Assembly: GCA_913778145.1 (NCBI GenBank)
Contig: CAJYVI010000099.1
Coordinates: 1-64,000 of the forward strand
Reading direction: 5' to 3'
DNA length: 64,000 nucleotides
DNA from: an uncultured Pseudocitrobacter sp.
GTDB taxonomy: Bacteria > Pseudomonadota > Gammaproteobacteria > Enterobacterales > Enterobacteriaceae
The notes under the pieces were generated by a model that worked only from the letters and a program-made list of their open reading frames with translations, was not told the origin of the DNA and did not search any database. The translations under genes and the position numbers were made by a program. How positions within the stretch are numbered: position 1 is the first letter of the stretch; every line of letters starts with the position of its first letter. Shown piece after piece: positions 1 to 51 of the stretch.

Positions 1-18
1 CCCACCCCACTAGCTGCC

Positions 19-51
19 ACACTCTTTCCCTACACGACGCTCTTCCGATCT
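19..51 (+). other. Illumina TruSeq read-1 adapter remnant
   Basis: All 33 bases match the standard Illumina read-1 sequencing adapter as I remember it, beginning ACACTCTTTCCC at 19 and ending GCTCTTCCGATCT at 51. Read on the minus strand in the secF frame it encodes the peptide RSEERRVGKEC, a familiar signature of adapter contamination in protein databases. Bases 1-18 lie outside the adapter; they may hold an index sequence (11-18 directly precede the adapter), but that is inference. None of this is genomic. Confidence 0.97.

Follow-up and report, generated by a model that had tools for sequence, protein, structure and literature searches.

How much of the start of one contig is foreign to the genome that it represents, and how did the foreign bases get there? 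The contig, C99 (87,104 bases), belongs to an assembly that totals 3,999,227 bases, comprises 188 contigs, and is 84.9% complete, and its first 64,000 bases form the window, the whole stretch of DNA analyzed here. An earlier note took bases 1 to 51 for the artefact. The adapter that it described is there, but the true non-native stretch is longer and runs from base 1 to base 98, because bases 52 to 98 are dxs sequence (Table 1). Here, we report the makeup of this contig end, its effect on the secF gene into which it runs, and its most probable origin.

Table 1. Features at the start of contig C99 (window coordinates)
Feature	Position	Strand	Remarks
Contig end, putative miscalled P5 flank	1..10		4/10 bases agree with the expected P5 flank
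Spurious 3' end of the SecF-coding frame	10..98	-	29 residues, codon 99-97 down to 13; stop at 12-10
Likely 8-base i5 sample index	11..18	+	Directly outside the read-1 adapter, parallel in C103
Complete 33-nt Illumina read-1 adapter	19..51	+	Exact match; 13-mer at contig ends of the assembly
dxs copy	52..106	+	55/55 bases against C104:97289-97343, minus strand; 52-98 non-native, 99-106 common with secF
Junction microhomology, 8 bases (TCAGCGCC)	99..106		Common to dxs and secF
Native 5' part of secF	99..549	-	GTG start at 549; 150 whole codons

The adapter and the bases outside it

The claim that a complete read-1 adapter lies at the contig start was borne out, with 33/33 bases identical to the Illumina sequence ACACTCTTTCCCTACACGACGCTCTTCCGATCT. 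The reverse complement of this sequence consists of a universal part, AGATCGGAAGAG, and CGTCGTGTAGGGAAAGAGTGT, both of which are quoted as Illumina adapter sequence in PMC11536531. In the window, the adapter begins 18 bases from the contig end and is oriented outward, with its index side outermost.

A core 13-mer of the adapter (AGATCGGAAGAGC) occurs once in the 64-kb window at up to 1 mismatch (shuffled sequences expect 0.06 occurrences). Across the assembly it has 7 exact matches, 7/7 of them at contig ends (C22, C98, C99, C103, C153, C156, and C166), and an eighth site, inside C70, matches at all but 1 base. A 22-nt core (CTACACGACGCTCTTCCGATCT) was found in 1/295 genomes of the family, this genome alone, and the full 33-mer had no megablast match in 20,395 Escherichia coli records and 72,556 plasmid records. 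The adapter is also missing at the same locus in relatives, where secF is uninterrupted in 5/5 aligned references (three genomes of the same genus, one of the same family, and one of E. coli). The reading of the 33-mer as chance or natural genomic sequence found no support and was rejected as vanishingly improbable, given the placement of every exact 13-mer match at a contig end, the want of a match among the E. coli and plasmid records, and the occurrence of even the 22-nt core in this one family genome. Bases 19 to 51 are, beyond reasonable doubt, adapter contamination.

On the read strand, the outermost 10 bases of the contig read GTGGGGTGGG, where the P5 flank would be GTGTAGATCT; 4/10 bases agree, and G replaces the expected base at 5 of the 6 other positions. 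These bases are likely a miscalled, G-rich stretch of that flank. The 8 bases between them and the adapter are likely an i5 sample index, judging from their position and from the corresponding arm at the end of C103. There, the read-2 side arm is longer and has 8 bases at the index place, a layout that we take for an entire P7 arm, index included. Continuations of the read-2 type were present at four adapter ends in all (C22, C103, C153, and C156), and, among the sampled contig ends, that of C55 starts with 12 bases of adapter and that of C113 with 10.

In the window as a whole, Rfam gave 0 matches at gathering scores. A short open frame with the peptide PLSLRERAGVRV at window positions 3952 to 4077 is, we assume, typical of a dispersed enterobacterial repeat and not a gene.

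An inverted dxs segment and a split secF gene

The minus-strand frame from 549 to 13 reads as SecF and ends in ...TVRHIRARLISPSCAARSEERRVGKECGS. Within it, as the earlier note had stated, the adapter translates on the minus strand as RSEERRVGKEC, in frame with SecF. The false SecF C terminus that the note inferred is likewise present, as 29 false residues (16 chimeric, 11 from the adapter, and 2 from the likely index), but 47 bases of dxs separate the adapter from native secF.

The match that identifies these bases (E = 1.9e-21) falls inside the dxs gene of contig C104 (NCBIfam score, 1048.8 bits; cut-off, 465.95). The base before TCAGCGCC differs from the window in all five aligned reference secF sequences, so TCAGCGCC is the stretch shared by the two genes and bases 52 to 98 are foreign to secF; similarity to E. 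coli secF begins only at window base 96. The remaining part of secF is the very end of C104. Because this part has the same orientation as the window, the dxs segment is inverted relative to secF (minus versus plus direction of C104). Its source lies about 10.3 kb from the secF junction, measured from C104:97289 to the projected place of window base 99, and one E. coli record has the two genes in the same arrangement, about 11 kb from each other.

Projected by alignment onto the references, the distance from the end of C104 to window base 99 is 24 bases in 5/5 cases. Since C104 ends with the rest of secF and all five references give this gap, the gene was likely split by the assembly and not in the organism, whose genome would likely have an ordinary secF. 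A join of secF to dxs could also come from a true inversion, either in the organism or in a strain present alongside it, and this would suit the exactness of the junction and the origin of both partners in this genome. We rejected it as highly improbable: C104 holds an unbroken dxs frame and the remainder of secF in ordinary order, secF is contiguous in the aligned references, and the dxs copy halts after 55 bases at the adapter.

As the contig stands, a SecF annotation would comprise 179 residues, 29 of them false, with the second half of the protein missing. If the contig were clipped at base 51, 47 foreign bases and thus 16 false residues would remain, while trimming past base 98 brings C99 to the projected 24 bases from C104. 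The expected site of read soft-clipping is ahead of base 99 instead of base 52, because the 47 bases of inverted dxs chimera separate the adapter from secF.

Contig ends, public genomes, and protein collections

The ends of the assembly were surveyed for further chimeras (166 ends of 126 contigs), using the first 4 kb of most contigs and up to 12 kb of others, a span from which farther copies could escape. Contigs C8, C154, C171, and C179, which are about 2.7 to 2.9 kb each and entirely N (apparently withheld sequence), produced spurious matches and were excluded (8 ends and 40 control windows), leaving 158 ends and 790 control windows. Within-contig exact matches of at least 20 bases were found at the ends of C174 and C9 (inverted) and of C110 and C6 (direct), compared with 1 inverted and 1 direct match in the 790 internal control windows. 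The start of C174 (positions 1 to 236) has 95-base exact fold-back arms in a thiol peroxidase gene, without adapter, and forms another inverted, chimera-type junction. On C9, the match pairs two oppositely oriented tRNA-Asn genes close to the contig start (positions 40 to 115 and 1873 to 1948); it was rejected as a chimera and is a natural inverted pair, a repeat at which the contig may have broken off. At the six full adapter ends other than C99, there was no chimera and no exact copy elsewhere, only diverged or repeat-like matches, with 40 of 56 first-look candidates scored.

The survey holds two chimeric inverted ends (C99 and C174) among 158 unmasked ends, a count to be read with the tendency of contigs to underreport chimeras. 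At the rate derived from PMC1855051, about 1 chimera would be expected in 158 × 150 bases, and the count of 2 thus neither proves nor excludes multiple displacement amplification (MDA). The case for abundant MDA chimeras at the contig ends of this assembly is weak.

Sixteen more sampled ends share at least 25 bases with other sampled contigs, many of them at multiple places or end to end, and were taken for repeats or overlaps. Exact 127-base matches between contig ends (C5 with C29 and C3 with C160) suggest an assembler k of 127.

Public sequence contains the exact 33-mer in at least 120 stretches each of genome_contigs and viral_contigs. The 120 bases next to the adapter were compared with the retrieved DNA of the same locus at 120 loci of each kind (at least 120 exist in each). 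Genome loci had an inverted copy at 0/123 sites and a direct copy at 1 (among 595 internal control windows, 7 inverted and 5 direct); viral loci had an inverted copy at 0/122 sites and direct copies at 2 (controls: 0 inverted and 5 direct of 600). The proposal that adapter ends generally carry inverted chimeras was rejected on these counts, and because inverted copies were found at neither the 123 genome nor the 122 viral sites, the C99 chimera is a local accident and not a rule of adapter ends. At most 300 bases lie outside the adapter at 122/123 sites in the 120 genome loci and at 119/122 in the 120 viral loci, and at most 160 bases at 82/82 sites in 80 of the genome loci. Open frames of at least 100 codons, counted without requiring a start codon, run into the adapter at 57/123 genome sites and 49/122 viral sites. 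Phage records contained the 33-mer in 7 of 50,697 cases, two of which have an annotated gene at the listed place.

The earlier note had warned that the artefact could spread into protein databases, and in the protein collection, this spread is already a fact for the adapter peptide. A search with the false tail alone returned 5 matches at E ≤ 10 among 59 candidates, and RSEERRVGKECGS is present in 5/5, which are otherwise unlike proteins. With E-values of 1.5 to 9.7, it is the exact peptide that identifies them. For the 194-residue open reading frame, no identical record appeared in the best 120 of 3,277 matches, where a 90%-identity cluster could conceal one. Two SecF proteins among those best 120 (P0003 and P0034) end in IGRAHV, which we would read as the read-2 adapter in another frame. 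P0003 represents a cluster of 416 member sequences. Another protein, P0123, has the read-1 peptide near its end and WSSDVCSSDL near its start, the latter taken for the second Illumina adapter arm, which would place adapter at each end of the protein. RSEERRVGKEC had been called a known contaminant; it does occur in database proteins, but a full-text search of open-licence PMC papers for the string found 0 papers. An adapter peptide that ends unlike proteins could seed false similarity between them. Adapter contamination at contig ends is itself an already known, ordinary artefact (PMC11536531), and the present case matters for data hygiene: the artefact is worth cleaning.

Origin of the contig end and comparison with known systems

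The contig end is very probably the tail of a single read, left untrimmed, of a chimeric library molecule with a short insert. We consider such a molecule likeliest because the junction, inverted, nearby, and joined by microhomology, resembles the chimeras made by phi29 polymerase in MDA. During amplification, most likely by phi29 MDA, a growing secF strand would have reannealed through TCAGCGCC to dxs, some 10.3 kb off, and, to judge from the junction, would have been extended along dxs in inverted orientation. As a library insert, the chimeric molecule would then have fallen short of the read length, and the read would have continued through dxs into the adapter, the putative i5 index of 8 bases, and a failing tail rich in G; this order is observed, while the identity of bases 1 to 18 is presumptive. 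The adapter was presumably left untrimmed, with the assembler extending the contig along the read to its end. The exact 127-base matches between contig ends suggest reads of about 150 bases, a single one of which would span base 1 into native secF.

It is possible, though we hold it somewhat less probable than its opposite, that the assembly as a whole was made from phi29-amplified DNA (a single cell or low input) and that some contig breaks, including that of secF, were caused by amplification chimeras. This estimate is slightly lowered by the distance of 10.3 kb, which falls in the class of more than 10 kb, in which shared bases are a minority. If this were true, adapter-bearing ends could hide a second false layer that adapter screens leave in genes. 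The contamination may instead be real and the dxs piece a random ligation or PCR chimera of library preparation, with no whole-genome amplification. Such chimeras occur in ordinary libraries too, and the rarity of chimeric ends in this assembly is odd for heavy MDA. A random join, however, would seldom combine a distance within about 10 kb, inverted orientation, and 8 shared bases, and C174 supplies another nearby inverted junction; we regard this explanation as unlikely.

Moeller et al. (2024) reported that 1110 of 15,657 MGnify species genomes were adapter enriched (p < 0.01) and that trimming by 450 bases followed by reassembly raised the N50 in 327/1110 of them (PMC11536531). C99 resembles the cases described there in having the universal adapter at a contig end, with the forward- or reverse-specific part adjoining. 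It differs in having a chimeric stretch between the adapter and native DNA, where the adapter as such is the subject of that source, whose main text mentions "chimera" a single time, in passing, and "protein" 0 times.

For MDA of single-cell E. coli, Lasken and Stockwell (2007) gave 495 chimeras in 10,878,753 bases, with 406/475 inverted and 76.8% having at least 2 shared bases; shared bases were present in 93.5% of inverted chimeras less than 10 kb apart and in 34.8% of those farther apart (PMC1855051). Overlaps of mostly 5 to 8 nt and distances of 0 to 5,000 nt are given in PMC4595205. As in these phi29 chimeras, the second segment of C99 is inverted, comes from the same region of the chromosome, and is joined over a short shared stretch (8 bases). 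Unlike the MDA data, this assembly has few inverted junctions at its contig ends. The distance of about 10.3 kb falls just into the class above 10 kb of PMC1855051 and exceeds the range stated in PMC4595205. The C99 junction agrees with MDA in orientation and overlap, with a distance at or beyond the edge.
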